From Ulota crispa (Eukaryota; Streptophyta; Bryopsida; Orthotrichales; Orthotrichaceae): a stretch of DNA of 64,000 nt. This document shows, piece after piece, positions 1 to 62,356 of this stretch. The position numbers were made by a program, and so were the translations under genes. The notes beneath the pieces are model-generated. The model ran no database searches, was not told where the DNA came from, and worked only from the letters and a program-made list of their open reading frames with translations. The first letter of the stretch is position 1, and each line of letters opens with the position of its first letter. The stretch covers positions 16,178,868 through 16,242,867 of the forward strand of contig OY987246.1 in NCBI GenBank assembly GCA_963920765.1, read 5' to 3'.

Positions 1-1216
1 GGTGCAAAAAATTTAAGTTCAAAAAGTTTAAAGTCAAATAATCTAGTCATGCAAGATGCAATAAAGTTGGTTTTTACACTTTAACTCCTAAAGCATTGAA
101 CACCGTTTTTTGGCAACTTAGCAATTTTGGGCAGCTCACGCCTCACTACCAATGAGGTTTTCATTTTTCTTCTTTGAAAAATTTCACACATGATGTGTCC
201 AAGGAGTAGCTTTAAGGCCCAACAATTTTCATAAGTTTTGACTTCATGGTCAAAAGTTATTACATGATATGTAGTTTTCTTTGCTCGGCAAGTAGCCAAA
301 AAACTTCTTTAAAATTACATTTTTTGATTTTTGATTTTTTGAAACTTGGTCTTTAAATTTATGTATACTTGGGAAGCTTTGAATCTTTCAAACTTTGATC
401 AATGAGATGAAAGTTATGAAGAGATTTTTCTTGCGGACAATTATGGATTCTCTACTCCAAAATAAACTTTGAAGTCCATTATTTTACTCAATTTTCAATA
501 CTAAAAAAATAAATTAAAAAAAAGAAGATGTAGATTGTTTATCACAACATTATCACCATTGGGATTGGAAATTTTCATTTCTATAATCAAGTTCTTAACA
601 ATTTTGAGGTTTGAATCATTCTCTACTTCTTTTTACTTATTATTGTTTTTCCATGTGTTTTACAATTCCAAATGATTTGAAAATTTTCAAGTGAGTAACC
701 AACTTGCTTTGAAGAACAAATCCAAAAAATCACAACCATTTTGGATTTTTTTTCATACAAATAGAACCTTGTGAAGTGCAACTGCCCAAGTTTTTGCATA
801 GACAAAGATTGGCTTTTTATCAATTCAAACTCAAATATTATCTAACAATCTACATGGTGAAAACTCTTGAATTATTTTTTCACATCTTTTGATACTAGTG
901 TAGTACAAGATCTTACAGCTATATTTGTCAAAACAAAAAAGGGTAAAACTTGGTACTTGTACTAGAAATGGCAATTTTGGAGTAGTTTTGGTGAACAATT
1001 GAGCTTAGTGCTTTAAGGGTTAAACGCAAATATCTTGTAATTTGTGTAGTCAAAGTTTTAAAATTTTTAATCCACATTCTTATATTAGTCTAGTATAAGA
1101 TCCTACATTTAGATATGCTAAAAGACCAATTTTCAAACTTTTTCACTCTTTGCCATAGAAATGGCAATTTTGAGTTTCTTTTGACAAAACAAAGGCCCCA
1201 AGGCTTTAGGGGTTAA
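1..1216 (+). mobile_element. TTAA-type element, group C, left end cut by window, interrupted
   Basis: The outer copy survives as 1-80 and 1024-1216. Those pieces align in order with the uninterrupted group C copies at 40903-41831 and 59812-60731. Shared landmarks are the stretch beginning AGTCAAATAATCTAGTCATG, then GCAAATATCTTG, the CTAGTATAAGATCCTAC segment and the right end AAGGCTTTAGGGGTTAA. A short hairpin (TTGCCAT / ATGGCAA) lies just inside the right end. There is no coding capacity. It is split by the group B element at 81-1023, so it is the older insertion. Confidence 0.85.
81..1023 (+). mobile_element. TTAA-type element, group B, nested in group C copy
   Basis: It is bounded by TTAACTCCTAAAGC on the left and CTTTAAGGGTTAA on the right, with TTAA at both edges. 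Removing it with one TTAA restores ACACTTTAAACGCAAATATC, against ACACTTTGAACGCAAATATC in the intact group C copy at 60540. It is 943 bp, non-coding and AT-rich. The homologous copy at 13159-13998 is inverted, and the one at 47991-48865 has the same orientation. The short open frames inside it are not conserved between copies. Confidence 0.88.
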
Positions 1217-1334
1217 TAAATGACACATTTATGAGGACAATTAACATCATAGGATGGAAGTAACAGTTCATTTGCACTACTTGATCTCCTTATCCATTCC
1301 CTCTTTTTAAAATTTCAAGGTTTGTACTTATGAA
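1217..1334. other. Short spacer between TTAA elements
   Basis: This is 118 bp of AT-rich sequence between the group C copy and the following group A element. I see no feature in it. Confidence 0.5.
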
Positions 1335-2291
1335 TTAACCCCTAAAGGCCCAACTGTCCCCTCAAGGGACAAATGGATTTTAGGCATGTACCCATAGCTA
1401 AACTACCATTTGTGTGATTTTCTTAAACTTTTACTCAAGGTGGAAAATTCCAAAACCTAAGCGGGCATCTAATTTTTTCTTCATTTAGACATTTATAGAC
1501 AAAGGTATGCCTGAATATCTAAAAATTAGGGGAGAGCGAGAGCAATCAAGGCAGTCCAAAAAACTTTCTTTAAAATTGAATTTCTTTGAAATGAAAATTT
1601 GAAATCACTTCTTTGGATTTGCACATATGTGGGAAGCTTTGAATCATTCAATTTTGATTGATGAGATGAAACTTGTGAGAAGTTTTAGTTTGTGGGCAGA
1701 TATGGAGTCTCCCAAACCTCCATTTCTTTTGCCCCTTGTAAAATTTGGTGCTTTATTTGTTTGAGCTCTTTTTGTATTTATTTTTTGACTCTTTTTTTCC
1801 CCAAGTTGTAGTAGACTACAATTCCTTGGTATTCACCATTTGGATTAAAGTAATTCACATTATTGAATTTTACATAAATCCTCCTATTTTGCCTAGTGTA
1901 TATGCAAATTTCATGATCTCATGGCATTGCAAGATTTTACAAGGAATGATGGACACCTCCAATTCATTTAAAAATTCTCCTACTCTTATCTAACTTGGTC
2001 TTCTACATGGAACATCTAAACCTCAACCTTGCATAGAGCAATTTTTTTGATATAGGAACTATCAAAGGCTTCTAAATTTTTTGGGCAACCATGAATTTTT
2101 TTTTTTCACTTCACTCCTCTACATCTAGAGTGACTTGATTTTTTCCCATAAGCACCTCCCGTAGTCTAGGGCAAGATTGGGCGGTTGGATTTCCAAAATA
2201 AACTTTTTTTTCCTACCTTTCTACTCATTCCCCCAAAAGTGGATGTTTCAATGACTTTCACAAAAAAAGGGCTTAGGCCTTTAGGGGTTAA
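1335..2291 (+). mobile_element. TTAA-type element, group A (957-bp reference copy)
   Basis: It begins TTAACCCCTAAAGGCCCAAC and ends GGCCTTTAGGGGTTAA. At 957 bp it has exactly the length of the copy at 16422-17378. Group A landmarks in order are a CTGTCCCC...GGGACAAATGG stem near the left end, GGCATGTACC, a core reading GAAGCTTTGAATCATTC, the segment TTGTAGTAGACTACAATTCC, and a terminal box CCCAAAAGTGG...GACTTTCAC. It has no transposase. Its right TTAA is shared with the group E element that starts at 2288. Confidence 0.9.
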
Positions 2292-3048
2292 CCCTTGAGC
2301 ACCCCAGCGCCCCATACATCTCCTCCCTTGATTCAAAGCCTTGTTTTGAGGCACTGGATCTAACTTTTTGGTCTTGCTACAAACTACAATTATGAAGGCA
2401 TTCAAGTTGTCCATGTTAATGGAGTAATGGTGACAAAAGCCAAATTGTGCTGCAAGAGATTTGATTTGGTGAAATATCGTACGGGGCAACATGGGCCTAG
2501 TGGTAAGGAGCGTTTTACAGGCTGCAACTGGTCAATATCCCTTGCAAACTTCCTTGTGTAAGCTTTGTGGTAGTGGGAAAGTTGTTGGCAAGGATTCAAG
2601 CATGTTCTAGACCCTTATTATGGCAACCGTCACCAATTGTGTTGGTCAATGTATTCCGTGCAATAGCCATTTGAAGCCCTAAAACTTGACATAAAAAGAA
2701 GTGCAATCTTCAATAATTTACGAGTGTGTGCTTTCACATCTAATCTTGCTGCTCACAAAATTTAAGATGTATCAGGGGCTTAGAGAATTTGTAAAAATCA
2801 TCAAATAGCATCTACCTACCAAAAAATGAGATTTTGTCATCACATGTTGTTTGATCAAATGTTATAATCTCCCATCTCATATGGTCAGCTATTTCCAAAA
2901 TTTGCAAGCCATTTTCCAAGGAGATGTTCCACTATTTTCAATGGTCCCTTTTGTGGATCATCCAAATGAGTGAGATATGATGCATCAAAGTTGTTGATCT
3001 CCAAAAACCTTGATTTTGGAGAATATGGCCTACGCGCTTAGGAATTAA
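2288..3048 (-). mobile_element. TTAA-type element, group E
   Basis: This 761-bp element is bounded by TTAACCCTTGAGCACCCC and GCGCTTAGGAATTAA. It is the inverted homologue of the copy at 27118-28821, which measures about 745 bp once its nested insertion is removed. It serves as the empty-site reference for that insertion, reading CATCTTAAATTTTGTGAGC at about 2755-2785 in reverse. It shares one TTAA with each neighbour (2288-2291 and 3045-3048). The frames of 65-108 codons on the minus strand match no known family. Confidence 0.82.
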
Positions 3049-3773
3049 CCCCTAAAAGACTGTTGTCCCCTCAAGGGGCAAATGGAATTTTGGGCATGTA
3101 CCTATAGCTAAACTACTTGTATGATTTTTTGAAACTTTTATGGAAGGCCGGGAATTCAAAGACTTATGTGGTTGTAGAATTTTTTTCTTCATTCCAACAT
3201 TTATTGAAGAAGTTATGCATGAATCCCTAGCAAACAAGGGAGGGCATGCAACCCAAAAACTTCTTTATAAATTGCATTTAAAAAAAATAAAAACTCAAAA
3301 TTGGTTCTTTAGATTTACATACATGTGGGGAGCTTTGAGTAATTCAATTCTAATTAATGAGCCAAAAGTTATGAAGAGTTTGAGTTTGCGGGTAGATATG
3401 GAGTTTTTCAAAACTAGACCTACGTGCAAACTGAAACTCTTCATAACTTTCATCTCATTGATTGAAATTGAATGATTCAAAGCTTCCCACACATATGTAA
3501 ATGGCTAAAAATTAAATTTCAGATTTTTGTTTTAAAAAAATTAAAATTTGAATGAAGTTTTTGGGCTGCCCGCCTTCTCCCATTTTCTGGAAACTCATGC
3601 ATAACTTCTTCAACAAATGTCAAAATGAAGAAAATTTTATATTACCACATAGGTCTTTGAATTCCCCATCTTCTGTAAAAGTTTTAAAAAATCACATAAA
3701 GTAGTTTAATTGTAAGTACATGCCTGAAATCTCATTTGTCTTTGCAAAGGATCAATAGTCCTTTAGGGGTTAA
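3045..3773. mobile_element. TTAA-type palindromic (fold-back) element, group D
   Basis: This 729-bp element runs from TTAACCCCTAAAAGAC to CCTTTAGGGGTTAA. The two halves are inverted copies of each other: the left half runs through GGCATGTACCTATAGC and the right half ends with GTAAGTACATGCC before the terminal box. The arms are about 340 bp and the centre lies near 3405. The left-arm sequence resembles the left half of group A, so it probably arose from two group A left halves joined head to head. The similar open frames on the two strands (3140-3475 and 3295-3492) result from this symmetry. Confidence 0.87.
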
Positions 3774-3962
3774 ACCTAAGAGAGCAAACACTCACTAAGT
3801 CACTATAAGCAAACATCCGTGTTAACATTGAAATTGGAAAACTAAAACATAACATACTGCTCTACGTTGCTTGTGTTTGTTGCCTTAGACTCTTAGAGTT
3901 TTCCTATTCTAGGCCAACATGGAAATTTGCTTCAAATGGACAATGAATGTTCTCACACGCTT
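3774..3962. other. Unassigned spacer
   Basis: About 190 bp between the group D element and a small MITE. No feature seen. Confidence 0.4.
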
Positions 3963-4588: not shown

Positions 4589-5533
4589 TTAACCCCTAAT
4601 GGCCTAGGCCATTTTTTTTGTGAAAAAAAATGAAAACTGCCACTTTTGGGGGATGAAAGGAATGGTTTTTTTTTTTTTTTTTGATTTAAAAAAAAAAAAT
4701 TCATTCATAAGATCTTGCTCTAGATAGCATGAGGTACTTGGGAAAAAAAATTGAGCATATTCCCAATGACAAGGACTGAGATTTTTACAAATGAAGTGAA
4801 GAAAAAAGTTTTTTTTCATACTACCCAAAAATTTCAGATATCGTTGACCACTCCTATATCAAAAAAATTGCTCTACACAAAGTTGAGGTTTTTCTTTCCC
4901 ATGTAGAAAACCAAGTTAGGTATGTGTGGGAGAATTTTCAAATCAATTGGAACTATACAGCACATGGGAAAGATCAATAAGTAAAAAGAAGTAGAGAATG
5001 GGATAAAACACTAAATTGTTAAGAATTTAATTATTGAAATGAAAAATGCAAATCCCAACGGTGATAGTGTTGTAATAAATAATCTACTTCCTTAGGTTTA
5101 GTTTTTTTTCCAAATATTGAAAATTGAGTAAAATAAAGGACTTCAAAGTTTATTTTAGAGTAGAGAATCCATAATTGCCAATAAACAAAAACTCCTTATA
5201 ACTTTCATCTCATTAATTGAAATTGAATGATTCAAAGCTTCTCATGTATGAAAAAATCTAAAGAACTAGTTTCAAATTTTTATTTTAAAAATATATAATT
5301 TTTAAAGAAGCTTTTGAGCTACCTAGATGGGCAGCCCTCCCCAAAATTTCAAAAAAACATGCATAACTTCTTCAATAAATGTCGGAATGAAGAAATTTTT
5401 TTGATGCCCACGTAGATCTTTGAATTCCTCATCTCCCATAAAAGTTTCAGAAAATTACATAAAATAGTTTACTCATAGGTACATGACCAAACCCCAAACG
5501 GTCCTCAAAGGGACAACGGGCCTTTAGGGTTAA
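4589..5533 (-). mobile_element. TTAA-type element, group A/B mosaic
   Basis: It starts TTAACCCCTAATGGCC and ends GGCCTTTAGGGTTAA (945 bp). The left part is group A in reverse, with the CCACTTTTGGGGGATGA box and the AAGTTGAGGTTTTTC segment. From about 4950 to 5200 it switches to group B material (AAGAAGTAGAGAATGGG, ACTTCAAAGTTTATTTTAG, TAGAGAATCCATAATTGCC). It then returns to the shared left-end region in reverse, ending with GTCCTCAAAGGGACAACGG. Confidence 0.83.
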
Positions 5534-8130
5534 AGAAGATTAAACATATTCAAGCATGCTTTAGATGATAGGATGCAATGATGCATTAATTTTCAACTGT
5601 ATGACCAATTTGATTGTTAGTTGCTTCATAATTTCTATGGAAGGTTCCCAATGTAAATTAATTCAAGTAAAGTTAAAATAAAGTAATAAACTTGCAAGAA
5701 AACGAAGACCTTGTTCTTGAAAACTTCCCAATCGGTGATTTGATTATGCCTCAAATAGCTTCATAGTTATTTACATGGTGTTTCACCCTATTGCACTCTT
5801 AGAGGTAAAAAGCACCAGGCACCAGCTTTTTGAAGTATCACGGTTTCACCATATGACCTATTGTATAGAAAACACTAGATAAACTATAGTTGAGGCTGGC
5901 GCTTTCCTGAATAGGAGGATATCCTGATCATGTGCGAAGACTTAGAACCGAATAATTATCAATTAGGATTCTGACGAGTCTTTGTATAGTGGCACACAAT
6001 TTGCTTGTATGGCGAGGTCATATCTTGGTTTGACTGAGCGATACAGAAACTGGGTCTCACTGTAGGCAGACTCCGTGCTTCACTTTACCGTTGATGGAGA
6101 CGCGGGGCCAGGATGCGGACTTCACCACGATGGCGATGACGACGGGGACAGGGACTTGGGGAGATTAATTACACCGTGGCTTGCGATTTACGTTACGCTC
6201 AGGGCTAGCTATACCAGTTAATAGGTCCTGGAGTGATTATCGGTGCAGCACCATTCGGAGAGCGGCACGAGAGTTGTATGGTCCCGGAGCAATGAAGACC
6301 TGTTCGATTGCAACGTTTAGCTATCTCATCAGTGCATATCAGCTGATCAACCACTCATCCTGCAGAGCAACACTGGACTTCGTAGGGGAAAGAGGTGGCA
6401 AATAGTCTCCTGCTATAATTCATCTGCCAACGCTTTGCTCTCCATGCAGTGGATTACCAACACAAAACTGTTCCATTAGCTAACTCAAGGCTATTACAAG
6501 TATTGCTAATCTGATTTAGACTCTGTTTTACAGTGATTTAATTTGGGGGGCATTGCCAAGACTGCACGCCTGCGGTCTACGAACATGAGATAACAAGGGC
6601 CCTCCACATCTGCCCATTCATTGAAATGCGTCCTGCAGCCTAACCCTTATTATCAGATTCCAGTTTCAAAGAAGAGGCTTTGCCGTGTGTGATGATTAGT
6701 GCAGTACTCGAAATGATATGATTACACTGAGTGAGTACGCTTGGGCCCTGCACTGCACTGCGGTTGTAACGACATTGCTGTTGCGGGAGAAGCTGGTGAG
6801 ATGCGACAATAAGCAGCTCAGGAACGGCAGCAATCTGGGTAATCTGGAGGCATAACGAGCAAGTCATAAAGTGGGGACACTCATCAATATCAGATATTAC
6901 TGCTCATGTGGGAATATCCTCATTGCCATTGGTAGTTGAAAGGGTTGTACTGGGATATTAGTAACGACCCTGAGAGCATCAAGGACACGGTGCAGCAACA
7001 CGGCACTGGCCACCTCTCTGCCTCCTACCATAGGAATAACAGAAGAGGGAGAATAGGGGGTTTACCCCGCCATCACAGATAATGGCTGGTGTGGCATGCA
7101 TTGCAGTGGATAATAGAAACCTGAAGCACATACAGCCAAATTCGTTAACAGACAAAGTGTATGTGAAGTGTGTACATACACACTCAGCTATCCCAAGCTA
7201 CCTTACAGTCATACAAAGAGGATTAGCACTTGCATGGTACACGGAGATGCCATCCAAATCATAATGGTAACATGCTAGGTACTTGCATTCAGGACGCACC
7301 ATCTTTTGATGTCTACAGTCATAAATAAGGGTACGATCTCAGATTGGTGTCACCTGACCAACCGACCACGTCAACAGTGAACACCGGCTTGTGAAGGAAA
7401 GGCACCTCAAATATAGTCATCTGGGTGGAAAAGTAGAATCATATTCTCGATGGAGGATAGTCCGTAGATTGTTTCAGAAGTTTGAATATTCCAGTGCATT
7501 GAGTAACTTCATCATGATCCAACTTTAACAGCTTTAAGTGCCATTACTCAAAACTTACAGTGATATAAGTTTATAGAGATGTATTCGAGAGACCTCAAAC
7601 TATTCTTCGACTTGAAGGTAGAACGAACATTACGTTCTACGCAATCTAATATGCCGCAGGACGTGTAACTCGTAATGTTCAGACATCTGTAAAATTCTGC
7701 ACCTTTGCGACCTCAATGCTACATACAAGTCACTAGGCACTGTACATACTACATCGGCCTTAGACAATACGGTTTCCTAAAATTCCCATGCCTAAACAGA
7801 GGAACAAAACACTATACATAGAGGTCGGTGAAAAGTCTAATCTACAGATGTTAGTGGAACAGGATCGAATGAAGCAGACGCTTATCACTGTACTCTTCTA
7901 CTTTTATGAGTAAAATGGAATTCAGTAGTTTTTGAAGTACGTTTTAAAAATTTTATGTGCTTTTCTTTACATTTTGCAGGCTTACCACTGAGGTTGATGA
8001 AGATTAGCGCAAAGAGCGGTCGAGTGTCGACATCCGAAATTATCACAGAGTCACAAATCAGATCAATGTCCTGTGAAGCTTCTTGATAGCCAGCCAGAAG
8101 GATTAAGACCCCTAAAAGCCCAAACCAACC
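5534..8130. other. Repeat-poor region of balanced composition
   Basis: In this stretch the base composition shifts away from the surrounding AT-rich repeats, and none of the TTAA, fold-back or MITE families recurs. Open frames of 60-75 codons occur on both strands (for example 6181-6405 plus and 6640-6867 minus), but none carries a recognisable domain. It could contain exons, introns or regulatory DNA of an unrecognised gene. I see no rRNA or tRNA. Confidence 0.4.
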
Positions 8131-8287
8131 CTCACCAGACGGCAGCAGAAGAAGCTCCAGAGAGCATTGAGCAAATTTGTGATCCAGAAATACGGCTCCC
8201 ACTTCAGGCTTGTACGCACACAGATTCTTCAGGCGTTTTCCTCCTATGAACAAGGTGATCTTTACCTCAAGCGTCCCATTTCAAGCT
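7885..8287 (-). CDS. Candidate exon(s) of an unrecognised protein
   Basis: On the minus strand from about 8283 a frame reads GTLEVKITLFIGGKRLKN, continues KPEVGAVFLDHKFAQC, and later includes QDIDLICDSVIISDVD before turning low-complexity. It lies in the repeat-poor region and has balanced codon content. Possible splice donors are GTGAGG after the codons for LLLLPSG and GTAAGC after INLSG, near 7986. An in-frame stop lies just upstream of the GTLEV stretch, so any gene would need an upstream splice. I do not recognise the family, and a chance open frame remains possible. Confidence 0.25.
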
Positions 8288-10053
8288 CACCAGCCACGTG
8301 CCGAAATGATCGGAAGTACCGCGACTCTCCCACCCTCACGCCACCACGTCACAGATATCGACAAGCCACTCAACACAAGGATGACCGAAGCACAAGCAAG
8401 CTTCAAGTTACTGACAAAACATAAACAACTTCTTGGATTGCTACAAAGACTGTGCCGGGCTGAACAAGGGCAGGCAAACCAAACCAAACCAACAAATACA
8501 TACGAAGCTATCTTTGAAGCTTTTACTGAACAGACATCTCACTAACATCTTCTCCGGCCCTGACACTTCGAACATGCCTCCAAGCTCCCACACACAGGGC
8601 TCTCGCCTACATGCATCTCTAGTTCCGAGCGAACTCTATCAGCCTCCCAAGGGATGCCAGAAGGGATCTCACGAGGTGAGGAGCTCATAAACCCCGCATG
8701 GGGGTGTGCTCGGAGCAGTGGCGAGTCGCCACAAGCAACCACAGGGGTTGCAAGGCGAGCAGGAGAGGAGCAAGACGAGTGAAGGTGGGAGAGGAGGGCA
8801 GTTTCTACGACGCCGGCAAGCCCAAGCAGGAGGGGCAGGGCAGGCTCCCGAGTCCCGAGTGACAGAAGATGCAGGCAAGGTAGGTAAATATAGTAGTCCA
8901 AGGGGGTGTGGGTGGGGTGAGCGCCAGCCCTGGCCAGCCCTGGCCCACCAGGGACGGAGGCCACATCGCCACCGCAACATCCATCGCAGCAGCAGCAGCA
9001 GGCTGGCTTTCCCACCACGGAAAGGCAACCCACAACCGGGCACCAGTTTTAGGCAACTCCAGCCATGCACCGTGGCCCGTGCGTTATGTGACACTCCATT
9101 GCGAGCGCGCGCGGCAGGCAGCGTGGGCCTGACTGACTGACTGACAGCGAAGGGGGTGAGGTGGTGAGACTGTGAGAGGTGCTGGTGGTGGTGGTGGTGG
9201 TGGTGGTGCTGCTTGCATGAGATGGGGATGCACGGGAATACGGGATCAGTTGGCCCCGTGATTCTATCCGCTCTGGTCTGGAGCCTCTGGAGCCCCTGGA
9301 GCCCCTGGGCCTGGGGCTAGGTTCCCAGTTCCCATTATGATTGTAATGGCAGAGGGGTTAAGTAGCATTGGCAGGCAGGCAGGGGGGGAGGATGAGCACG
9401 TTGCTCTGTAGTCTCGTCTGCCGTGTCAGGCGCTTAATTCCGCTAGACACCCCTCTGCCCGGCAATCCTGTGATTCCAGTATTGGACTAATGGCCCCTCC
9501 CTCCCTCCCTCCCTCTCTCGCTGTAAGTTAAGTGTAACTCCAGCGGGAAAGAGTCTCCAGAATTTTCTTTACTGCGCATGGGCCTACTTCTACTGTTCTA
9601 CAGGTGAGAGAGAGTACGTACAGCACTACAGCCTTGTGCTGCCCCCCTCCCCCCTGCGCTGCCCCTGCACCGGAGTGCCCCCCCTTGGCCCCTGCCACGA
9701 GGAGTGAGAGCCGTGCTGGAGCCCTAGTCTATAGGGCTCCGTGATGCTTGCAAGAGATCGAGCCTTGACTTTGGGGCGCCGGAGGAGAACCCGCAGGCAC
9801 CCATCGCTTGCCCGCCCACGCCTCTGTCTTTTCCGTCTCTCGCCTTGAGAGTTGAGAGACTCCGTACAGCGATGGATTTTGGCGGATTTTTGGGAGGATT
9901 TGGGCTCCATTGGCTCTCCCCTTTGACTCCACCAGCGCTTCCCCCTCTTGCACTACTCCGGAGTCCGGACTTCGGACTCTGGAAGTGTGCCATACAAGTC
10001 TTTGTCTTCGGGAAACGAGCCCTGTTTTTTTGGTGTCCTTTTTGTCTTTCGGC
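8130..10053. promoter_or_regulatory. GC-rich island, possible promoter or first-exon region
   Basis: This is the most GC-rich part of the window. It has CpG-containing runs (GAGCGCGCGCGGC near 9103), a GCA run near 8990, a TGAC run at about 9130-9145, a GGT run at about 9183-9208 and a CCCT pyrimidine run near 9500. Many overlapping frames are open on both strands, as expected from GC-rich composition alone, and none shows a known domain. It ends abruptly at the MITE at 10054. A promoter or leader role is inferred from composition only. Confidence 0.35.
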
Positions 10054-10516: not shown

Positions 10517-11215
10517 TTAACCCCTAAAGGCCCAAGCCTTGTTTTTTGTGAAAGTCACTCAAAACTGTCACTTTTGGGGGAATGAGTAGAAAGGTAGGAT
10601 TTAAAAAAAAAAAATCCAATCGTAGGATCTTGCCGTAGACTATGGGAGGTACGTGTGTGAAAAAAATCAGCTCATTCTAGATGTGGAGGAGTGACATATT
10701 GATATCTAAAGTTTAGAAAATAGTTTTTTGTCTTGCTGCCCAAAAATTTCAGAAGCCTTTGACAGCTCCTATATCAAAAAGGTTGCTTTACAAAAAGTTG
10801 AAGTTTTTTTTTCTCATGTAGGAGAACAAGTTAGGTAAGTGTGGGAGATTTTTCAAATGAAATGGAGGTTTGAATCATACTTTGTAAAATCTTGCAATGC
10901 CATAAGGTTATGAAATTTGCATATACACCAGGAAAAATTGGAGGATATATGTAAAATTCAGAAATTTTAATTATTGTGATCCAAACGGTAAAACCAAGGA
11001 ATCTTAGTCTACTACAACTAGGGAAAAAAAAGTAAAAAAAAAAAGCACATATAGCTCTAAAAAGTAAAGCACCAAATTTTACAAGGGGGGAAAGAAATGG
11101 AGGTTTGGGAGTCCCATATCTACTAGCAAACTAAAATTTCTCATAACTTTCATCTCATCAATTAAAATTGAATGATTCAAAGCTTCCCACATACATATAA
11201 ATCCAAAGAAACATT
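10517..11215 (-). mobile_element. TTAA-type element, group A, truncated
   Basis: It begins TTAACCCCTAAAGGCCC and follows group A in reverse through CACTTTTGGGGGAATGAG, AACAAGTTAGGTAAGTGTGG, TAGTCTACTACAACTAGG and GATTCAAAGCTTCCC. Homology stops at about 11215, where an unrelated MITE family begins. The final 250 bp or so and the second TTAA end are missing. Confidence 0.8.
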
Positions 11216-11627
11216 ATTCAATTGTAACCTTTGGTGTGGTTCTAAACTAAAGCAAAGAACACCATATTAGGTAAATTGGGAAAAATAGAGGTACTATTTT
11301 ATACTCCTCCTTAAACCCAAAAAGTTACCTTAAACCAAATTTAAAAGGTATTAGATTCAGTATGAGCCACTAAGAATTTTTCCCACGCAAATTCCTCCTC
11401 TCAAGTGAGGGCACATGTACCCAAAAAAATACTAGAGCTCAGTTTAAGGTGATCACCTTAATCTTTTGAAAGTCCCAGAATGTATTGGTTTTCCAAATTT
11501 ACCTAATATGACGTTATAGCCTCTAAATTTAAATGGGAATTCAAATTTCCAAATTCAACTTGTTGATGGTAAATATCTAAAATTTACCCCCCCAGTGTGC
11601 AAATATCAAGTGCACATATCAATTCCC
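11216..11627. mobile_element. Partial GGGAATTGATATG-family fold-back element
   Basis: The right arm ends with AAATTTACCCCCCCAGTGTG and ACATATCAATTCCC, as in the copies at 18267-18680, 37921-38318 and 45687-46117. The left part begins inside the same arm (GTGTGGTTCTAAACTAAAGC), so most of the left arm is missing. It is interrupted by another small inverted-repeat element at 11263-11510. Confidence 0.6.
11263..11510. mobile_element. Small MITE nested in fold-back remnant
   Basis: Inverted ends read CATATTAGGTAAATTGGG on the left and CCAAATTTACCTAATATG on the right, enclosing about 250 bp. The flanking arm of the host element resumes on the far side, which supports insertion. A target duplication is not evident. 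Confidence 0.55.
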
Positions 11628-11823
11628 TTTATCTATTGATCCTTCTTCTCAATGGCAATTGTCTTTATATTGTTGGGCTTGCTGGCACTCAAAAATCGGA
11701 ATCTTCTTTTGTCTTTGAGTGAGCATTTTTGAACATTACTTGAATAAACCATGAATTCACAAAGTGCTCATTATGAGTGTTCCCAAATTTATTTTAGGCT
11801 CTGATGTTGGAAAGGTGTATATT
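11628..11823. other. Unassigned spacer
   Basis: About 200 bp of AT-rich sequence. Nothing seen. Confidence 0.3.
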
Positions 11824-13158: not shown

Positions 13159-13998
13159 TTAACCCCTAAAGCTCTAAGCTCAAATTTTCACCAAAACTGC
13201 TCCAAAATTGCCATTTCTAGTACAAGTACCAAATTAAAATTTTTTTTTTGGACAAATGAAGCCGTAAGATCTTGTATTACACTAGTATCAAAAGATCTGA
13301 AAAAATAATTCAAGAGTTTTCACCATGTAGATTGTGAGATATTTGAGTTTGAATTGATAAAAAGTCATTTGTTCTCTTTGCAAAAATCTACGCAACTGCA
13401 CTTCACAAGGTTCTATTTGTATGAAAAAAACTCCGAAATGGTTGTAATATTTTGGATTTGTTCTTCAAAGCAAGTTGGTTACACACTTGAAAAACTTCAA
13501 ATCATTTGGAATTTTAAAACACATGGAAAAACAATAGTAAGAAAAAAGAAGTAGAGAATGATTCAAACCACTAAATTGTTAAGAACTTGATTATGGAAAT
13601 GAAAAGATCCAATCCCAATGGTTGGAATGTTTTATTAAACAATCTACATATTTTGGTTTTATTTTTTTCTTAAATATTGATAATTGGGTAAATTAATAGA
13701 CTTCATAGTTTATTTTAGAGTAGAGAATCCATACTTACCCACAAACAAAAACTCCTTGTAACTTTCATCTCATTGATCAAAATGGAATGATTCAAAGCTT
13801 CCCAAATATACATAAATCTAAAAAACCAATTTCAAAAACCATGAAGTCAAAAGTTATGAAAATTGTTGGGCCTCAAAGCTACTCCTCAGACACATCATGT
13901 GTGAAAATTTCAAAGAAAAAAATCAAAATCTCATTGGTAGTGAGCTGCCCATAATTGCTATGTTGCCAAAAAAGGGTGTTCAGTGCTTTAGGGGTTAA
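13159..13998 (-). mobile_element. TTAA-type element, group B, inverted copy
   Basis: It begins TTAACCCCTAAAGCTC and ends CAGTGCTTTAGGGGTTAA (840 bp). It is the reverse-oriented homologue of the nested element at 81-1023. Both have the GTAGAGAATGATTCAAACC stretch, ACTTCATAGTTTATTTTAG, and the CACATCATGTGTGAAAATTT box. The 66-codon frame at 13354-13554 is similar to one at 623-823, which only reflects the shared repeat sequence. Confidence 0.87.
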
Positions 13999-16421: not shown

Positions 16422-17378
16422 TTAACCCCTAAAGGATCAACTGTCCCCGTGGGAGACAAATGGATTTTGGGCATGCACCTATAGCTAATCTATTTTTTGT
16501 GATTTTTTGAAACTTTTTGTTAAAGGTGTGGAATTCAAAGATCTATGTGGGCATCTAATTTTTTCTTCATTTCAATAATTATTGAAGAAATTATGCATGA
16601 ATTTCTAAAAAAGGGCGAGAGCATGTAGCCCAAGAAAAATTCAAGTTTTCATTTTTTGAAAATAAAAATCTGAAATTAGTTCTTTAGATTTATACAAATG
16701 TGGAAATCTTTGAATCATTCAATTTTGATAAATGAGCTGAAGGTTATGAGAAGTTTTAGTTTGCGGGTAGGTATGGGACTCCCAATCCTCCATTCCTTTT
16801 GCCCCTTGTAAAATTTGTTACTTTACTTGTTTGGGCTATTTATGTTTTTTTTTTTTTGATTTTTTTTTTCCCAAGTTGTACTAGACTAAGATTCCTTGGT
16901 TTTCACCATTTGGATCAAAGTAACTCATATTTCTGAATTCTACATAAAGCCTCCAATTTTGCCTAGTGTATATGCAAATTTCATGACCTTACAACATTGC
17001 AAGATTTTACAAAGTATGATCCACACCTCCGTTTCATTTGAAAATTCTCCCACATTTACCTAACTTGGTCTTCTACATGGAAAGAATAAACCTCAATTTT
17101 GTGTAGAGCAATTTTTTTGATATAGAAGCCGTCAAAGGCTTCTGAAATTTTTGGGCAGCACAAAAAAAAGCTTTTGTTTTCACTTCAAATGTCAAAAACT
17201 CAATCCTCTACATCTAAAATGAGTTGGAATTTTTCCCACGAGTACCTCCCATAATTTAGGACAAGATCTTACTGTTGAATCTTCAAAAAAAAAAAATCCT
17301 AACTATCTACTCATTCCCCAAAAGTGACAATTTTTAGTGATTTTCAAAGAAAAAAGAACTCGGTCCTTTAGGGGTTAA
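16422..17378 (+). mobile_element. TTAA-type element, group A, second 957-bp copy
   Basis: It runs from TTAACCCCTAAAGGATC to GGTCCTTTAGGGGTTAA. It is colinear with 1335-2291 and has exactly the same length. The left stem region reads CTGTCCCCGTGGGAGACAAA, the core is TTTGAATCATTC, and the right box is CCCCAAAAGTGAC. It has TTAA at both ends and no coding capacity. Confidence 0.9.
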
Positions 17379-18266: not shown

Positions 18267-18680
18267 GGGAATTGATATGTGCACACCATGGTTCATATTT
18301 GCACACTCCCTTGGGAGGTAAATTGTAGATTTCTACCATCAAAAATCTGAATTTGAGAATTTTGAATTCAAATTTGGAGTTAGAGACCATGATTTACTCT
18401 AGAACCATAAAAAGGCTTGCAATTGCACAACATCCAATGAAATAGTTTATCTTTTTTTACAAACAAAAGTAAAAGTAACACTTTTTCCCCTAGCTAAACT
18501 TTTCCATTGCATGTTGTTTAATTGCAACTTTTTTTTATGGTAATAGAGTAAATCATGGTCTATAACTCCAAATCTGAATTCAAAATTCTCAAATTCAGCT
18601 ATTTGATGGTAGAAATCTACAATTTACCTCCTAGAGGGGTGTGCAAATATCAACCCCCTGGTGTGCACATATCAATTTCC
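18267..18680. mobile_element. GGGAATTGATATG-family fold-back element, complete copy
   Basis: This 414-bp element is nearly palindromic. It starts GGGAATTGATATGTGCACAC and ends GTGTGCACATATCAATTTCC, with arms of about 190 bp around a centre near 18475. Both arms carry the words TGATGGTAGAAATCTACAAT and CCAAATTTGAATTC in opposite senses. The 60-codon frame at 18555 is an arm artefact. Confidence 0.8.
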
Positions 18681-45569: not shown

Positions 45570-45686
45570 TTAACTCCTAAATGACCATTGTCCCCTTTGG
45601 GGACAAATGGGATCTTGGGCATGTATTTAAATTTGTACTAACTTGTAAGATTTTTTGAAACTTTCATGAAGGGTAGGTACACAAAA

Positions 45687-46117
45687 GGGGATTGATATGT
45701 CTACCACACCCTTTCAGCTATTCTATCACACCCTTTTGGCTATTCTACCACACCCCCGGGGTGAATTTTAGATTTCTATCATCAAATAGTTGAATTTGAG
45801 AATTTGGAATTCAGATTTGGATTTAGCGACCTTGATTTTGTTTAGAACCATAAGAAGGTTGTAATTGAACAACACCCAATGGAAAAGCTTTGCTCGGGGG
45901 AAAAATATTGCTTTTACTTTTGTTTATAAAAAAGATAAGCTTTTTCATTAGGTGTTGTTCAATTAGAACCTTCTTATGATTCTAGACTAAATCACAATCT
46001 CTGAGTCCAAATTTGAATCCCAAATTCTCAAATTCAGCTTTTTGATGGTAGAAATGTAAAAATTACCTAATGAGGTGGTAGAATAGCTGAAAGGGTGTGG
46101 TGGATATATCAATTCCC
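45687..46117. mobile_element. GGGAATTGATATG-family fold-back nested in group A
   Basis: This 431-bp palindromic element runs from GGGGATTGATATGTC to GGATATATCAATTCCC. Arms carry AGAACCATAAGAAGGTTG and its reverse. The flanks TACACAAAA (45678-45686) and TGTACAAAA (46118-46126) agree at 7 of 9 positions, consistent with an aged 9-bp duplication. The host element resumes on the far side with CCTATATGGGGATCC. Confidence 0.75.
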
Positions 46118-46240
46118 TGTACAAAAACCTATATGGGGATCCATTTGTTTTTCATTCCAATGTTTGAAGAAGAAGTTATGCAAGAATTTTTCAAAACTAC
46201 AAGAGGAGGGGCAGTTTGGACAAGGCATTAGAATTGTAAA

Positions 46241-46491
46241 GGGGAATGCTAAATTGTGAGCAAGGATCCATGAGCTATGAGCCACGATTCTAGTTGTCAA
46301 AATGTTTAAATTTCACTTGTAAACGTGTACATAGAGCATTATAATTGTGCATTACAAACATTTATATTTTTCAAAACTTGCTTTTATTCAAGTATTTCCA
46401 TTGATTTTGAGCTCAAAACTGGTTCTTGCTCACAAAATATTGGCTCACTGCTCATGGGCTCATTGTTTTATGCTTACAAAATAGTCTTGTT
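46241..46491. mobile_element. GTGAGC-family MITE nested in group A
   Basis: It begins GGGGAATGCTAAATTGTGAG and ends near TGCTTACAAAATAGTC. It is colinear in reverse with 33439-33695 (shared GAGCTCAAAACTGG and GTGCATTACAAACATTTATA). The right boundary is approximate and a duplication is uncertain. Confidence 0.6.
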
Positions 46492-47200
46492 ATTTTGGTA
46501 AACGACCGTTGATTCCAAAACTAGTTAGCTTGTAGGGGGCCAAAGTGTGGCCATTTGGATAGAGGGGAGTGGAGTGGAAGGGGCCCATTTTGGGGGACAT
46601 CCAATCCTCCATTCTATTTACCTCTTGTAAAATTTGGAAGTTTGATTTTTTGAGCAGTTTACGTAAAAAGAAATTCTAGTTGTTTTTAGTTAGTTGTAGT
46701 AACCCAAGATTCCTTGGTTTTCAACATTTGAATCAGTATAATTCAGATTTTGGAACGTACTTAATGCATCTAATTTTGTCTAGTGTATTTGCAAGTTTCA
46801 TGAGTTTAATTCTAGCATTGCAAAATTTTATTTAGTATGTTGTACTTCTCCAATTCATTTGCAATTTCTCTACACATTGTTAACATGGTCTTCAATGTAT
46901 AGAAATAAATCTCAACTTTGTGTAAATCAATTTTTTTACTAAAAGAGTGATCCAAGGCTTTTGAAAGTCTTAGGCATTGAAGGAAAAAATATTTTTCTTT
47001 AATTTGAATGTCAAAACCTCACACTTTTTCATCTAAATTGAGTTGGTTTTTTTCCCACATGCACCTCCCATAATTTTGAGCAAGATCCTATGGTTGAATT
47101 TTTTAAAAGAACTATTTCTCCTACCTTTTAGCTCATTTCCTTAAAAGTGGCATTTTTGAATGACTTTTACCAAAAAATGGGCTTGGTACTCGGGGGTTAA

Positions 47201-47966: not shown

Positions 47967-49754
47967 CTAACCCCTAACGGACTGCAGCCTTTAACCCCTA
48001 AAGGACCAAACCTCTTTTTTAGAAACATAGCAATTTTGGGCAGGTACCTGGGATTGGACTTTTTCATATTTTAGGCTGAAATTTTAATCGAATGTGGGGA
48101 CAAAGTTTATCTTTCATATGCACTAAATTTTATAACATTTGAAATTATGAGTAAAATGTTATGGCCTAATCTATCTTTTTTACGTTCTTCAGGCAGCCTG
48201 AGCAGATTTTTAAGAATCACTTTTTTCAGAGACAAAATTTTTAAAATTGGTTTAGGAGATTTATGTGAATGTAGGAAGCTTTGATTTGTTCCATTTGGAC
48301 CAACAAGATGAAAGTTATGAGGATTTTTTGTTTGCGGGCAATTATGGATTCTACTCCAAAATAAACTTTGAAGTCCTTTGTTTTACTCAATTTTCAACAT
48401 TTTGGAAAGAAAACAAAACCAAAGTATGAAGATTGTTTATGACAACATTATAACCATTGGGATTGGCATTTTTCATTTCCATTATCATTCTCTACTTCTT
48501 TTACTTACTAATTTTTTTCCATATGTTATACAACTCCAAATGATTTGAAACTTTTTTGACATGTACTTTGCTGAGGTGGAATAAGGAATTTAGAGAAGCA
48601 CCACCCACATGGCCTTTTTTCTTTAGGAATTTCACCTTCTGAAGGGTAGCTGCCCAATTTTTCACAAGACATTTTTGAATATTCAAACCATTCTAACTTC
48701 CAATCCATGTGGTGGAAAACTCTGAATTTTTTTGTCATCTTCTTATAAGATCTGAGGGTCACAAATGCACAAAAATGTTTTTGGTTTCAAGTTTGGTTGA
48801 TGCTCTAAAAATGGCAATTTTGAAGAGTTTTTGGTGAAAACTTTGCTTGGTCTTTTAGGGGTTAATTTGTCAATAGACACTCAAAATTGCCATTTCTATG
48901 GCAAAGAATAAAAAGGTTTGAAAATTGATCTTTTTGCCTATCTAATTATAGGATCTTGTACTAGACTTGTACAAGAATGTGGAAACAAAAAAACAAAAAC
49001 TCTAACCGCATAGATTGCAAGATACTTGAGTTTAAAGTGTCAAAAATAAACGTTTTTGCACCTTGCATAACTAGACTATTTGGCTTTGAACTTTTTTACC
49101 TGAATTTCTTGCAGCATAGAGTTTGGAAATTCAAATCTTTATGGTGGAAAATTGAGTTAAGAACCTTTGAAAAAATTTAAAACAAAAAATACTTAATTTT
49201 CATTCTTAAAAAAAAAAAAGTAGAAAAAGGTATGAGATTGAACAAAAACTGAAATTGTTTAAAATAACCCTTCAATGGAATTGAAACACAATAATCCCAA
49301 AGGTGAGATTGTTTTGAAAAGAAAACTTCACCCCATTCGTCAATTTTTTGAAAAAATGTTAAAATCACTTCCAAAAATGAAGTTTATAAGTTATTTTTTC
49401 AAGAAGATGCTTAAATTGCCCAAAAACAAGATTGTCCATAACTTTCTTCAAACTATTCCAAATTGGAATGAATCAAAGCTTCAAATGTAAACTAAAACTA
49501 AATCTAAGAGAAAGGTTTCTTTTTTCTTTTTTGAGTTTTTGTAAAAAAATTTGTTGCCATCCCTCCCCAAATTTGTGCTTATTTGGACATAACTTTTGCT
49601 CCCAAACATAAATTGAAATAAAAATGATATTCCTCAAAAGCTAATGTGTTCTTCTATATTCAAAAAAAAATCAACAAATGAGGACAAAAATTGAGGCCGT
49701 AGGTACCTGCCCGAAATTCCATTTGTCCCAAAGGGACAACAGTCCTTTAGTGAG
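47967..49754 (-). mobile_element. TTAA-type element, group C, inverted and interrupted
   Basis: The left end reads CTAACCCCTAACGGACTGCA (the TTAA has become CTAA), then after the nested element comes TTTGTCAATAGACACTC. It follows group C in reverse: TGCCATTTCTATGGCAAAG, GTACTAGACTTGTAC, CTTCAAATGTAAACTAAAAC, and near the right end GGTACCTGCCCGAAATTCC. The right end CCTTTAGTGAGTG is diverged. Confidence 0.78.
47991..48865 (+). mobile_element. TTAA-type element, group B, nested in group C copy
   Basis: It starts TTAACCCCTAAAGGACC and ends GGTCTTTTAGGGGTTAA (875 bp). The interior matches group B at 81-1023 (CAATTATGGATTCTACTCC, CTTTGAAGTCCTTTG, GGCATTTTTCATTTCC). It sits about 24 bp inside the end of the inverted group C copy: flanks GACTGCAGCCT and TTTGTCAATAGAC join to match GGCCTTTATTTTGTC of intact copies. 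Confidence 0.82.
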
Positions 49755-51812: not shown

Positions 51813-52468
51813 TTAACCCCTAAATGCCCAAGGCCTTTCTGAACTTCTTGGCATTTTTAAAATAGTGAACAATCAATCAACCTTTTCATAAATTTCATCA
51901 AGTTTTTCAAAATTGTAACCGTACAAATTTAAACTTGACATGTTAGAGATTACATGGAAAAAGAAAACATAACAATATCACTTATAGTTTGAAAGATTAT
52001 AATGTTTGAACATGAGGGTGTTAGAATTGCAAAAGCGACTTGAAGTTTTCTAATCCTCATTTCACATGTCAAATCTAAAAAGTTAGTCATTAAAAAAATA
52101 TGAGGTTTAAGGTCATTACATATTTAACCTCAACCAATTTATGGCTTTCAAAATCTACTCCTGTATTTTTTTTAAATGAATTTCTAATGTGGATTTTTCT
52201 CCAAGCTCTAGTGTATTTGAGGCTCATTTTCAAGATCTTCCAACACTAGGAAAGTCAAGATTGCAGTGGACACCCTTGTGCAAAATCTTGAGTAGAAAAA
52301 TCATCAACTTTCATTTTCAAAATCAGATTTTTGATATTGAAAATAGACTTCAAAACAAACTTGTGTTTAAAAAAAAAAAACCCCAAAAATAGTGATTTGA
52401 TAAAATTTTATTAGTCTTCAAAGTTTTGCAAACACCCAAATTGGGTGCCTTGGGCATTTAGGGGTTAA
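51813..52468 (+). mobile_element. TTAA-type element, group F, copy 2
   Basis: It starts TTAACCCCTAAATGCCC and ends GGGCATTTAGGGGTTAA (656 bp). The interior is colinear with 36653-37303 (GTACAAATTTAAACTTGAC, AACAATATCACTTATAG, GAACATGAGGGTGTTAG). Its ends are more canonical than those of copy 1. Confidence 0.86.
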
Positions 52469-53398: not shown

Positions 53399-54629
53399 CT
53401 ATAAAAAAACTCATGTTGCCTACCTGTCTGTTTGGTTATTGGTGACCGGTCTGACAGGCATGGAGGCATGGGGAGATAGGGAGATGGGATGGGGCGATGG
53501 GCATGGAGGCATGGAGAGATGGGATGGGGTGAAATGGAGCAATGGGCATGAGGAGGTGGGATAGGGTGATGGGATGGAGGTGGGATGGGGTGATGGAATG
53601 GGGGCAATGGGGGCTAGAGTAATGCAATGGGGCTTGGGGCAATGCAATGGGGGCAATGGGGCCATAGGATGGGACGCATGGGCATGGAGTGCATGATGGA
53701 AGTTGCAAGGCATTTAGCTAAATGGGTTTACTAACTCATTTAATCCATAAAATTCCTTTCTGTTTACATGCTCAAATGGTTTGAAATTGACCTCTCTTAA
53801 TAAAATCATTAATGGATCAAAATTTTGAATTTTTTCAATAATTCAACCATAAGATCTATTTTTTACTTATTTATGTACACCCTCTCAAAGTTTCAGACTT
53901 TGTAAGGGCATATTTCTTTAGATAATAACACTCAAAGTAGGATTGAAACTTCTCTTGAAGCTTCTCCAAAGTGTCAATTTTTATTTTGGTCATCCAAAAT
54001 GGTATCTTCCACTTTTTGAGTTTCTTATGCAATTTGAATTTCTTATAGAGCATGAAGCTGGCTATATGCCTCACAAATTTCATGACCATCCAATGCCTAA
54101 AACATAGTGGAAGAAAATTGGAAGCGGGAACTACTTTATTGAAATTGTCATTACACTAAGAAAACTTCACTAAAATGATTCTTATAGTAATAAGTCTCAA
54201 TTACAAAATCCGTACAATTTAAAACTAGAACATCATGTAGAGTACTTGCTAAAGGAGTTTTTTCTAAAAATAAAAAATAAAATAGAAGTTATTACGTAGT
54301 CAAGGAGAGTTGGCTACAAAGTTTGCCCATTGACAAGGCCATTATAAAGTGCTTTTGAACACTTTGTGGGCAAACCCTTCCCAACATCTTTGTTTCTATT
54401 TTGTTTTAGAGATGCCCGTGTTGACACCTAAATCACATATGGTACCATGTCTCACTTAAAAATTATTCAATTCTAATTTTTTGGGAGGAATGCAAGCTTT
54501 TTTATATGAGCACATACACTCTTGTTTCTAAGTCTTGTTTTTGTAGTCTTATCTCAAATATTTACACGGAAAATGCTTGCTCAAATATCCAAAAGCCCAA
54601 AGTGGGCTCCTTGGTTCTTAAGGGGTTAA
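53394..54629. mobile_element. Insertion splitting the Tc1 transposase, with a TTAA-type right end
   Basis: This segment of about 1.2 kb separates the two parts of the Tc1 reading frame. Its right edge is TTCTTAAGGGGTTAA, the usual end of the TTAA superfamily. On the left the boundary lies near TTTACAAT (53391-53398) and no CCCCT terminus is left. It contains the G-rich minisatellite at 53450-53715 and AT-rich DNA with a 72-codon Lys-rich frame (53871-54089 minus) of unknown meaning. The left end may have been lost to rearrangement. Confidence 0.6.
53450..53715 (+). repeat. G-rich minisatellite
   Basis: Degenerate short units such as GGGATGGGGTGAT, GGGCATGGAGGCAT and GGGGCAATGCAAT repeat over about 265 bp, with strong G bias on the plus strand. 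Runs of three to five Gs at short spacing could form G-quadruplexes. The His/Pro-rich frames on the minus strand are translations of the repeat. Confidence 0.88.
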
Positions 54630-56636: not shown

Positions 56637-56639
56637 GTA

Positions 56640-58669: not shown

Positions 58670-58687
58670 TCACCGCCAACGGCGGTG

Positions 58688-59212: not shown

Positions 59213-59214
59213 TA

Positions 59215-59795: not shown

Positions 59796-59811
59796 TATGC
59801 CCTATGGTCAT

Positions 59812-60731
59812 TTAACCCCTAAATCCCTGAATGTCCCTTCGGGGGACAAATGAGATTTTGGGCAAGTACCTACAACCTCGATTTTTGTTTTGATTTTTTG
59901 AAACTTTTTTGAAGATAGAAAAACACATTGGCTTTTGGGGAATATAATTTTTATTCCAATATATGCCGGGAGCAAAAGTTATGCCCAAATAAGCAAAAAT
60001 TTTTGGAGATCGGGCAGCAAAAAAAATTACAAAAACTTGAATTCTTTTTTTTTTTAATTTTTTCTTTTCATAGGTTATAGTTTTGTCTACATTTGAAGCT
60101 TTGATTCATTCCATTTGGACTAGTTATGAGAAAGTTATGGACAATCTTGTTTTTGGGCAATTCAGGCATCTTCTTGAAAAATAACTTATGAACTTCATTT
60201 TTGAATGCAAGTTTAACACTTTTTCAAAAAAATTGCTAGAGAGGGTGGAGTTTGCTTTCTAGAACAATCTCACCTTTGGGATTATTGCATTTCAATTCCC
60301 ATTGTAGCATTATTCACAATTTAAGCTTTTGTTCAATCTTATACCTTCTTCCCCTTGATGTTTTTTTTAAGAATGAAAATTAAGTATTTTTTGTTTTGAT
60401 TTTTTTCTGAAGGTTCTCAACTCAATTATCCACCATAAAAAAATAAACTTCAAAAATTTCTGGTGCAAAAGTTTTAAGTTAAAAAAGTTCAAAGTTAAAT
60501 AATCTAATCATGCAAGGTGCAAAAAAGATTATCTTTTACACTTTGAACGCAAATATCTTCCAATCTGTGTGATCAAAGTTCTTGAGTGTTGTATGACACA
60601 TTCTTATACTAGTCTAGTACAAGATCTTGTGGTCAGAAGACCAATTTACAAACTTTTTTACCTTTTGCCATAGAAATGGCAGTTTTGAGTGTTTTTTGAC
60701 AAAATAAAGGCCCCAAGGATTTAGGGGTTAA
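59812..60731 (+). mobile_element. TTAA-type element, group C, second complete copy
   Basis: It starts TTAACCCCTAAATCCC and ends GGATTTAGGGGTTAA (920 bp). It is colinear with 40903-41831, though the left hairpin is less perfect (GTCCCTTCGGGGGACAAAT). It supplies the uninterrupted reference ACACTTTGAACGCAAATATC for the nested insertion at the window start. It begins 15 bp after the Stowaway TA flank. Confidence 0.89.
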
Positions 60732-61439
60732 GGATTAAGGAGGTTGAAGTGTTCAGAAACAAATATCACAATCTGATAATCTTGGAACAGATGAAAAAAA
60801 TAACTTATTGAATTAGAATACAAGCGTTATATATTTGGGGTTTCGTTCAACAAATCGAAAAAAGAAAAATTGGTTCTAACGGGATTAATTTTAGGTTGCC
60901 CCCCCCCCCCTCAAGGTATTTGGATTAACTTCAGCTTGTCAAGAGTGCCATAATCCATTATAAATATTCAGTGTCATTCATCAAACTTCCCTAAGTTTTT
61001 TTTACGAGTTTCTTAACATTTGTCCTCCTTAGATTTCTATTATTTCTCTTTTACAAGTATTCTGTAGTCCTAATACTACAATTATGTTTTTACTTTGATT
61101 CAATAGCTCATTGTTCATTTCTAAAAATACTTCTTCAAAGATGATTTCAACAAATATGGAATACGAATATCGATAAAATTTCTCATATCTTCAAATTTAC
61201 ATTTTGTATTCATATCACCACAATTCTTGTTAAGTCAACAATAATCAATTTGCAATCAACTTGGATGAGATTTTGAGCTTTTGGTTCTGAATCTTTACTA
61301 ATAAGCACAAATTAACAAAATTATAAGATATATTTTAGAGGTCATAGTTTAAATTTTCTGGTTCAAAAGTCACAAGTACGCTACACTTCCGAGTTTTCAC
61401 TTTGCAATTTATCTTAACATTTTAGAAAATATAACTACT
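60732..61439. other. No gene recognised; short poly-C tract
   Basis: About 700 bp of AT-rich DNA. A run of about twelve Cs lies at 60900-60911. Nothing else stands out. Confidence 0.4.
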
Positions 61440-62356
61440 TTAACCCCTAAACGCCCAAACGCATTCTTTCTGAAAAAACACCAAATACAGTCATTTTCAG
61501 TTATATGATCTCAAGGACAATATTTTTACTTAAAAAAAGAAATCAAATCGTAGGATCTTGCATTGAACATATGCAAGAAGTCATAGTGAAATTTTTGTGA
61601 AGTTTGAGTGTAGAGATTGAGAGATATGAGCACTTGAAGTTAGTATACAAAGTTTTTTGACCTCTGCTCAAAAAATTTAGGTCTTTTTGATTACATATTG
61701 TGAACAATTTTTGCACTATAGATGTGGGAGAGATTTTTCCAACATGCTCTAAATTATGTTAGGGCATATTTCCATAAGTTCTCATGACCAACAAAGATTT
61801 GGAACACTCTCCTCATGGGCATGCTTTGCAAATACGTGCTTGAAAATCTTTTTACACTAAGGTTTATTGCAAACCAAATTTCCAATGGTGATTTTTGAAA
61901 ATTAGAAATCCCAACGGTGGATTGGGAAGACTTTTTCTTTATTGAAAACCACAAAATAAATTGAAAATAATAATAATAATAATAATAATAATCTCTAATA
62001 GCTATTGCAATTCAAGAGTTAGTGTATCTATCAAATATAAAAATGAATTTATCTAGTACATTATTGCTTTTAGTATATTCTAATGAAGGGTCATACCTTC
62101 ATTGGTGGTCCTTTAGAGAAGTCAACAAAGTTTGGCATGCCTAGCCTGCCCCTTGAACAAAAAATGTACATAAACACTAGTAACTTTTGATTGAATCCTA
62201 TTTCAATAAAAATGGTACTTTCCATGTAGCTCTTGCAAAACTTAATCTTGGAAATAATTTTCTAATAAATTGAACAATAATCCTAGTAGAACAAGGCTGT
62301 CCAAAATCCATATTGTCCCCATAGGGACAATGGGCTTTTAGGATTTTAGGAGTTAT
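61440..62356 (+). mobile_element. TTAA-type element, singleton
   Basis: It starts TTAACCCCTAAACGCCC and ends GGCTTTTAGGATTTTAGGAG then TTAT (right TTAA mutated). 917 bp. The right side has GTCCCCATAGGGACAATGG, like the left stems of groups A and C in reverse. The interior contains an AAT microsatellite at 61966-61995. Confidence 0.72.
61966..61995. repeat. AAT microsatellite
   Basis: (AAT)n tract inside the TTAA element at 61440-62356. Confidence 0.9.

Follow-up and report, generated by a model that had tools for sequence, protein, structure and literature searches.

The window considered here is a 64,000-nucleotide stretch of contig OY987246.1 from Ulota crispa (assembly GCA_963920765.1, positions 16,178,868 to 16,242,867, forward strand), in which short non-coding elements recur whose ends read TTAA followed by a run of C. 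We regard it as very nearly certain that these belong to the piggyBac superfamily, as non-autonomous miniature inverted-repeat transposable elements (MITEs) of a moss genome. We accepted fifteen elements that have both ends, which measure 651-963 bp and add up to 12,858 bp; they were chosen from candidate convergent-end pairs, several of which were alternatives to one another, and the set is thus one picked by its ends. At least four nested, interrupted or truncated copies and one lone end bring the number to about 20, close to the roughly 21 copies of a preliminary description of this DNA. Homology to the 15 elements and to ten copies from other loci, once merged into 18 stretches, takes up 15,366 bp or 24% of the window, which is smaller than the approximately 18 kb first claimed.

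The copies are listed below. Numbers such as L049 denote loci elsewhere in the genome, and matches to them are, unless otherwise stated, matches to the ends of transposase-bearing copies.

1-1216: outer copy whose right end is 1204-1216; 81-1023 interrupts it, and its left end is either lost or beyond the window; the flanks of 81-1023 align with 40903-41831, 59812-60731 and 48866-49752
81-1023: miniature nested in the copy ending at 1216; end pair; empty site in four related copies; L049 downstream end, 216 bp at 64%, E 1.6e-13
1335-2291: miniature; end pair; right ~580 bp in common with downstream ends of transposase copies; L054, 609 bp at 70%, E 1.8e-90
3045-3773: fold-back miniature; end pair; no direct match to transposase-bearing ends; the left arm of 16422-17378 is 77% alike over ~360 bp
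4589-5533: miniature, right end decayed; end pair; L051, 376 bp at 79%, E 4.9e-84
10517-11221: truncated copy with one, exact, end; 85% to positions 259-962 of 27401-28363
13159-13998: miniature of the 81-1023 group in opposite orientation; end pair; 87% to 81-1023; L049, 213 bp at 67%, E 3.7e-19
16422-17378: miniature; end pair; right ~600 bp in common with transposase-bearing copies; L051, 597 bp at 74%, E 4.1e-111
20316-21013: miniature; end pair; empty site with TTAA in L042; marginal 33-bp L047 match, E 0.001
27401-28363: miniature, right end CTAA; end pair; L054, 616 bp at 74%, E 5.6e-115
32033-32910: miniature; end pair; L049, 569 bp at 62%, E 1.3e-34
36653-37303: miniature with CCCCTCAAC ends; end pair; no direct match; 75% over 554 bp to 51813-52468
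40903-41831: miniature; end pair; L054, 349 bp at 59%, E 4.3e-13
~45570-47200: copy split by other DNA, its homologous parts lying at 45570-45685 and 46594-47200; right terminus decayed
~47967-49752: outer copy interrupted by 47991-48865; 48867-49752 is 79% to 40903-41831
47991-48865: miniature inserted near the end of another copy; end pair; empty sites in related DNA have a unit of 4 bp that does not read TTAA; L054, 134 bp at 67%, E 1.1e-12
51813-52468: miniature with identical termini; end pair; matched at 92-93% by 39 other copies; similar to the ends of L043 and L047, best E 5.9e-9
54617-54629: lone end, a match to TTAACCCCTAAAG at up to two mismatches; partner not found
59812-60731: miniature; end pair; 85% to 40903-41831; L051, 298 bp at 61%, E 4.1e-16
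61440-62356: miniature, right end decayed; end pair; left ~600 bp in common with the L049 downstream end, 607 bp at 70%, E 8.6e-95

Comparison of the 15 by blastn gives, by our own grouping, about eight groups. The earlier claim was of at least seven internally different groups; "internally different" is only partly true, because several of the elements share segments as mosaics of one another. In the window itself the transposase frame of L043 detects no transposase, its best tblastn hit having E 1.8. None of nine window frames scored above a curated Pfam cut-off, and an Rfam search gave no match. The earlier statement that no transposase is visible holds for the window, but transposase genes do exist elsewhere in the genome, as described below.

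Terminal sequences

On both strands of the window the 13-mer TTAACCCCTAAAG matches 37 times at up to two mismatches, 10 of these exactly, where 2.80 matches are expected (standard deviation 1.53) and the highest of 100 shuffles gave 7. Throughout the 274.8-Mb assembly the exact 13-mer occurs 17,656 times (8,816 + 8,840), as compared with 16 (8 + 8) for the reversed-pattern control, and the exact 11-mer TTAACCCCTAA occurs 34,662 times (17,299 + 17,363) as compared with 231 (115 + 116). The genome-wide mean would predict approximately 4 exact 13-mers in a stretch of this size; the window, with 10, thus has more than its share. The ends are of the type TTAACCCCTAAA[G/T].

Target site and empty sites

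Copies of the 51813-52468 family, taken from across the genome by whole-element similarity, are flanked by TTAA on both sides in 10 of 10 cases, with unrelated DNA outside, as are 23 of 25 further elements (a set mostly picked by its end motif). Over the 70 ends of these two samples, the TTAA positions carry 1.78-2.0 bits of information, the first base outside 0.28, and positions farther out at most 0.16; at 66 of the 70 the fourth base after TTAA completes CCCC. A longer duplication is absent in the ten family copies, the eight bases on each side of TTAA agreeing at only 1-4 positions.

Empty sites were sought among 28 candidate pairs in the sequences at hand, and related DNA spanning the joined flanks was found for four insertions: 81-1023, 20316-21013 and 47991-48865 in the window, and L002:1501-2455. 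Nine of the 11 spanning matches were aligned in detail, and all nine cross the junction without a gap at the four bases. At all four insertions the empty sites fit a single 4-bp unit, which is exactly TTAA at two of them: relatives of 81-1023 have TTAA in two of four cases (48911-49113 and L008) and TTGA in the other two, while the L042 relative of 20316-21013 has TTAA. For the L002 insertion the relative's four bases are CCAA, and for 47991-48865 they are TTGT, TCAT and TTTT; these two sites show how long the unit is but do not give its letters, as might be the case with relatives only ~75-85% identical. The empty sites, together with the flanks of the ten family copies, agree with insertion into TTAA and duplication of those four bases, as in the piggyBac superfamily.

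Transposase genes and element boundaries

The piggyBac transposase domain (PF13843, DDE_Tnp_1_7) has at least 120 matches in the genome, all above the curated cut-off and 110 of them with stops; this number is a lower bound, since scoring took in just 116 of 528 first-look candidates. In the same search none of 14 control genomes had a match. A read-through frame at L043 matches piggyBat (PDB 9c0f) at 1e-24 and piggyBac (PDB 6x67) at 1e-19, and its DE, DN and DxxD motifs align with those of both proteins. The four aspartates of these motifs, which we take to be the catalytic residues, are retained in 11, 11, 10 and 9 of 11 copies. A strict pattern for a cysteine-rich C-terminal domain fits three of 11 frames (L039, L048 and L050), others appearing cysteine-rich to the eye but decayed. 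All nine transposase frames with confirmed element ends contain stops; at L039 and L040 the domain is free of stops, but their ends are unconfirmed. Separately, a piggyBac-type gene at L042:3111-5938 is made up of open pieces of 164 and 309 residues, possibly separated by a GT-AG intron; the ends at L042 are likewise unconfirmed, and the gene could be either a younger element or one belonging to the host.

The limits of the transposase-bearing elements were established by pairwise alignment of 14 loci taken with 7.6-9.9 kb of surrounding sequence. At nine of the 14, copies cease to be alike no more than two bases from a TTAACCC end, in most cases TTAACCCCTAAA, and at four both ends are so defined. 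The alignment of L044 with L048, at 90% identity, spans 5,029 columns with both ends and is bounded by TTAACCC[C/T]TCAT (TTCA at one L048 end). L043 and L047 are alike from TTAACCCCTAAATGCC to TTAA/TCAACCCCTAAATGCC, with lengths of 5.7 and 5.5 kb and an unaligned stretch upstream of the gene; the two ends of L043 share 15 identical bases after TTAA. On the downstream side, the homology in the pairs L050/L051, L053/L054 and L049/L053 breaks off at the same point, give or take a base, at TTAACCCCTAAA[A/G]G.

With miniatures as dense as they are in the window, one could suppose that they had merely inserted beside transposase loci, the shared ends belonging to neighbors and not to the transposase-bearing elements themselves. 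One such case was in fact found and discarded: an apparent 6.6-kb element at L041 was dropped, its right end belonging to a separate miniature. Neighbors would not, however, account for homology that runs in one piece from the coding region to the end and then stops, as it does over 3,477 columns in L050/L051, over 3,953 in L043/L047, and across both ends in L044/L048. Nor would they account for four transposase copies that bear the same 500-600 bp arm in the same place, each without the miniature's other arm. We therefore consider this explanation highly improbable.

A blind search for paired TTAA ends was not used as evidence, with the exception of a perfect end pair in L043, of which there was no counterpart in 30 cross-locus comparisons. 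Neither was L042 accepted as a 7.5-kb element with TTAACCCTTGCA ends, the end match there being within the control level.

Relation of the miniatures to transposase-bearing copies

When the 15 window elements are compared with the terminal 700 bp at each of 13 ends belonging to the nine transposase copies, 12 of the 15 match, with the best match beginning at end base 1 or 2, extending up to ~600 bp, and having E values from 5.9e-9 to 5.6e-115. None of 25 control segments, picked by hand from the window, matches at E 1e-3. The elements at 1335, 16422, 27401 and 61440 share ~560-620 bp with the transposase-bearing copies at 69-75%, and that at 32033 shares 569 bp at 62%, while both ends of 51813-52468 are related, if weakly, to the two ends of L043/L047.

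This end-anchored homology bears on a second alternative, namely that another superfamily moved the miniatures and that the piggyBac ends resemble theirs by convergence. Kolobok and Sola elements also duplicate TTAA, so the duplication is not specific to piggyBac, and models for these two superfamilies were not included in the search. Convergence, on the other hand, would be expected to yield short similar ends only, not homology of up to ~600 bp with copies that carry a transposase, and the relatives found have the piggyBac domain. The chance that Kolobok or Sola is responsible appears to us very small.

Several observations weigh against assignment of the miniatures to piggyBac. No end could be confirmed at five of the 14 loci (L039, L040, L041, L042 and L052), L049, L050, L051, L053 and L054 lack an upstream end that could be found, and the L049/L054 comparison continues for 15-16 bases beyond the ends. 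Ends at up to two mismatches within 1.5 kb of the domain were found at 0 of 30 loci; the explanation is that the ends lie 1.4-2.5 kb off on the downstream side and that L009 and L018 have a variant end. The blind pair search did no better than its cross-locus control (at up to two mismatches in 16, 2 of 14 same-locus as against 15 of 182 cross-locus pairs; at up to four, 5 of 14 as against 44 of 182). The terminal inverted repeats of piggyBac are described as 12-19 bp long and beginning with CCYT in PMC10175614, as opposed to the CCCC that follows TTAA at most ends here; L044 and L048 have CCCT on the downstream side. None of the fetched transposase-bearing copies has the left arm that characterizes the 1335/16422/27401 type, from which it follows that the full parent of this type has yet to be seen. 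Finally, two of the 15 elements (3045-3773 and 36653-37303) have no direct match to a transposase-bearing end, and the match of 20316-21013 is marginal, at 33 bp.

These last three elements could alternatively consist of unrelated DNA captured between piggyBac ends, as opposed to being internal deletions. Their scant similarity to transposase-bearing ends is what one would then expect to see, but two of the three, 3045-3773 and 36653-37303, have relatives among the elements that do match, and with just nine transposase loci with confirmed ends at hand, the parents may be unsampled. Capture is, to our minds, a possible though unlikely origin for the three. In a separate observation, L044:430-1155 is a near-perfect fold-back miniature, 77% to window 3045-3773, with arms of 338 bases that are 98% complementary and a 6-base spacer.

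Returning to the piggyBac assignment, the window elements combine a size of 651-963 bp and inverted ends with high copy number, the absence of a transposase match, and a relation to a transposase-bearing element, the properties by which MITEs are recognized. The preliminary description had read the TTAA and CCC-type termini as a piggyBac signature, and this is upheld by the empty sites, the PF13843 genes, the element boundaries and the end-anchored homology. Both of the checks it had proposed, for transposase-bearing relatives and for TTAA flanks, came out in its favor on the samples described above.

Origin and age of the miniatures

In the mechanism that we envision, piggyBac elements of ~5-6 kb, related to the miniatures, would once have supplied transposase, and internally deleted and rearranged derivatives would have retained the TTAACCCCTAAA[G/T] ends. 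Such derivatives could then have been mobilized in trans, being excised at their ends, presumably seamlessly, and inserted into TTAA with its duplication. Repeated bursts of this kind may account for end sequences numbering in the tens of thousands genome-wide, with most of the movement probably in the past.

The family of 51813-52468 is informative as to age. Among the best 40 of 5,016 candidates, 39 other copies lie at 92-93%, 36 of them over all 656 bases, and one more, adjoining one of the 39, lies at 78%; no copy closer than 92-93% is among the matches listed. Judged from these sequence distances, the pattern would fit a burst followed by independent decay. Two copies of this family stand head to tail at G000 C5:20256720-20258021, their matches overlapping by four bases, as though the TTAA bordering one copy had served as target for the other.

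Host and other features

The genome contains a LEAFY gene, one exon of which (105 residues) is identical at 103 of 105 positions to the PDB 4bhk chain, which we take to be LEAFY of Physcomitrium patens, with a score of 241.6 bits as compared with 174.1 for the next LEAFY chain. The plant host that had been suggested is, by this exon match, a moss. The two LEAFY exon matches on contig C4 flank a 247-bp element (L045:991-1237) that has TTAACCCCTAAAG and CTTTAGGGGTTAA ends and probably sits in a LEAFY intron; elements of this kind thus reach genes.

A second fold-back repeat family of ~370-415 bp, without TTAACCCC ends, is present in the window at 18267-18681, 37914-38325, 45749-46117 and 11521-11632, as well as inside the L043 element (L043:2902-3265). 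Window positions 8001-10000 form a GC-rich island (0.568, as compared with ~0.30-0.45 in the other 2-kb bins) in which open frames overlap; those tested had no Pfam match above cut-off.

Comparison with known systems

The piggyBac element of Trichoplusia ni (6x67) and piggyBat (9c0f) resemble the moss elements in TTAA target, transposase and catalytic motifs, while being distant in sequence, with CCYT where the moss ends have CCCC after TTAA (PMC10175614). In animals, piggyBac-derived MITEs of two coral genomes are likewise miniatures tied to piggyBac and TTAA, as judged by term counts in the paper (PMC2872659). Among land plants, the fern Ceratopteris also has piggyBac-labeled repeats: its annotation gives 1,230 PiggyBac copies and 122 kb, printed as 0.00% (PMC6890710), as compared with the 34,662 exact 11-base ends in the 275 Mb of the moss. 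Passages of two further articles place piggyBac-like elements in fungi, plants and metazoans (PMC8086355) and PiggyBac among the plant class II superfamilies (PMC10794571). On the other hand, a MITE survey of 207 plant genomes, four of them bryophytes, sorts them into five superfamilies plus a special group, none of which is piggyBac, and neither that name nor TTAA occurs in the main text (PMC12550479); piggyBac is likewise absent from the main text of a study of expressed transposons in Physcomitrium (PMC7466625). A Niphotrichum moss genome paper proved a false lead, the "piggybac" in its accessible text being "piggybacking". Neither piggyBac elements in a moss nor an expansion of piggyBac MITEs in one was recognized among the matches listed in our literature search, which covered mosses, bryophytes, other plants and algae and left most subscription papers and Repbase outside its reach. 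That piggyBac derivatives are this common in a moss suggests that some bryophyte insertions may be unlabeled or misassigned.

Both piggyBac in plants and piggyBac MITEs are, then, already known, and it is the scale in a land plant, here a moss, that is unusual. The Stowaway and Tourist MITEs of grasses are high-copy, non-coding elements moved in trans by relatives, with TA or TWA duplications. The moss miniatures are similarly high-copy and non-coding, but belong to another superfamily and duplicate TTAA, not TA or TWA. We lean toward the view that piggyBac is the leading source of MITEs in this moss lineage, on a scale like that of Stowaway and Tourist in grasses, with ~20,000-30,000 copies making up ~5-10% of the genome, an estimate that combines the 34,662 exact 11-base ends with the 19 of 30 window-element ends that are exact at 11 bases and ~0.86 kb per element, and that leaves the true genome share uncertain because the window set was picked by its ends. 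If this is so, piggyBac would be a further superfamily of plant MITEs, misnamed by pipelines built on five, and the moss would offer a natural test bed for one transposase family moving thousands of miniatures in a plant.

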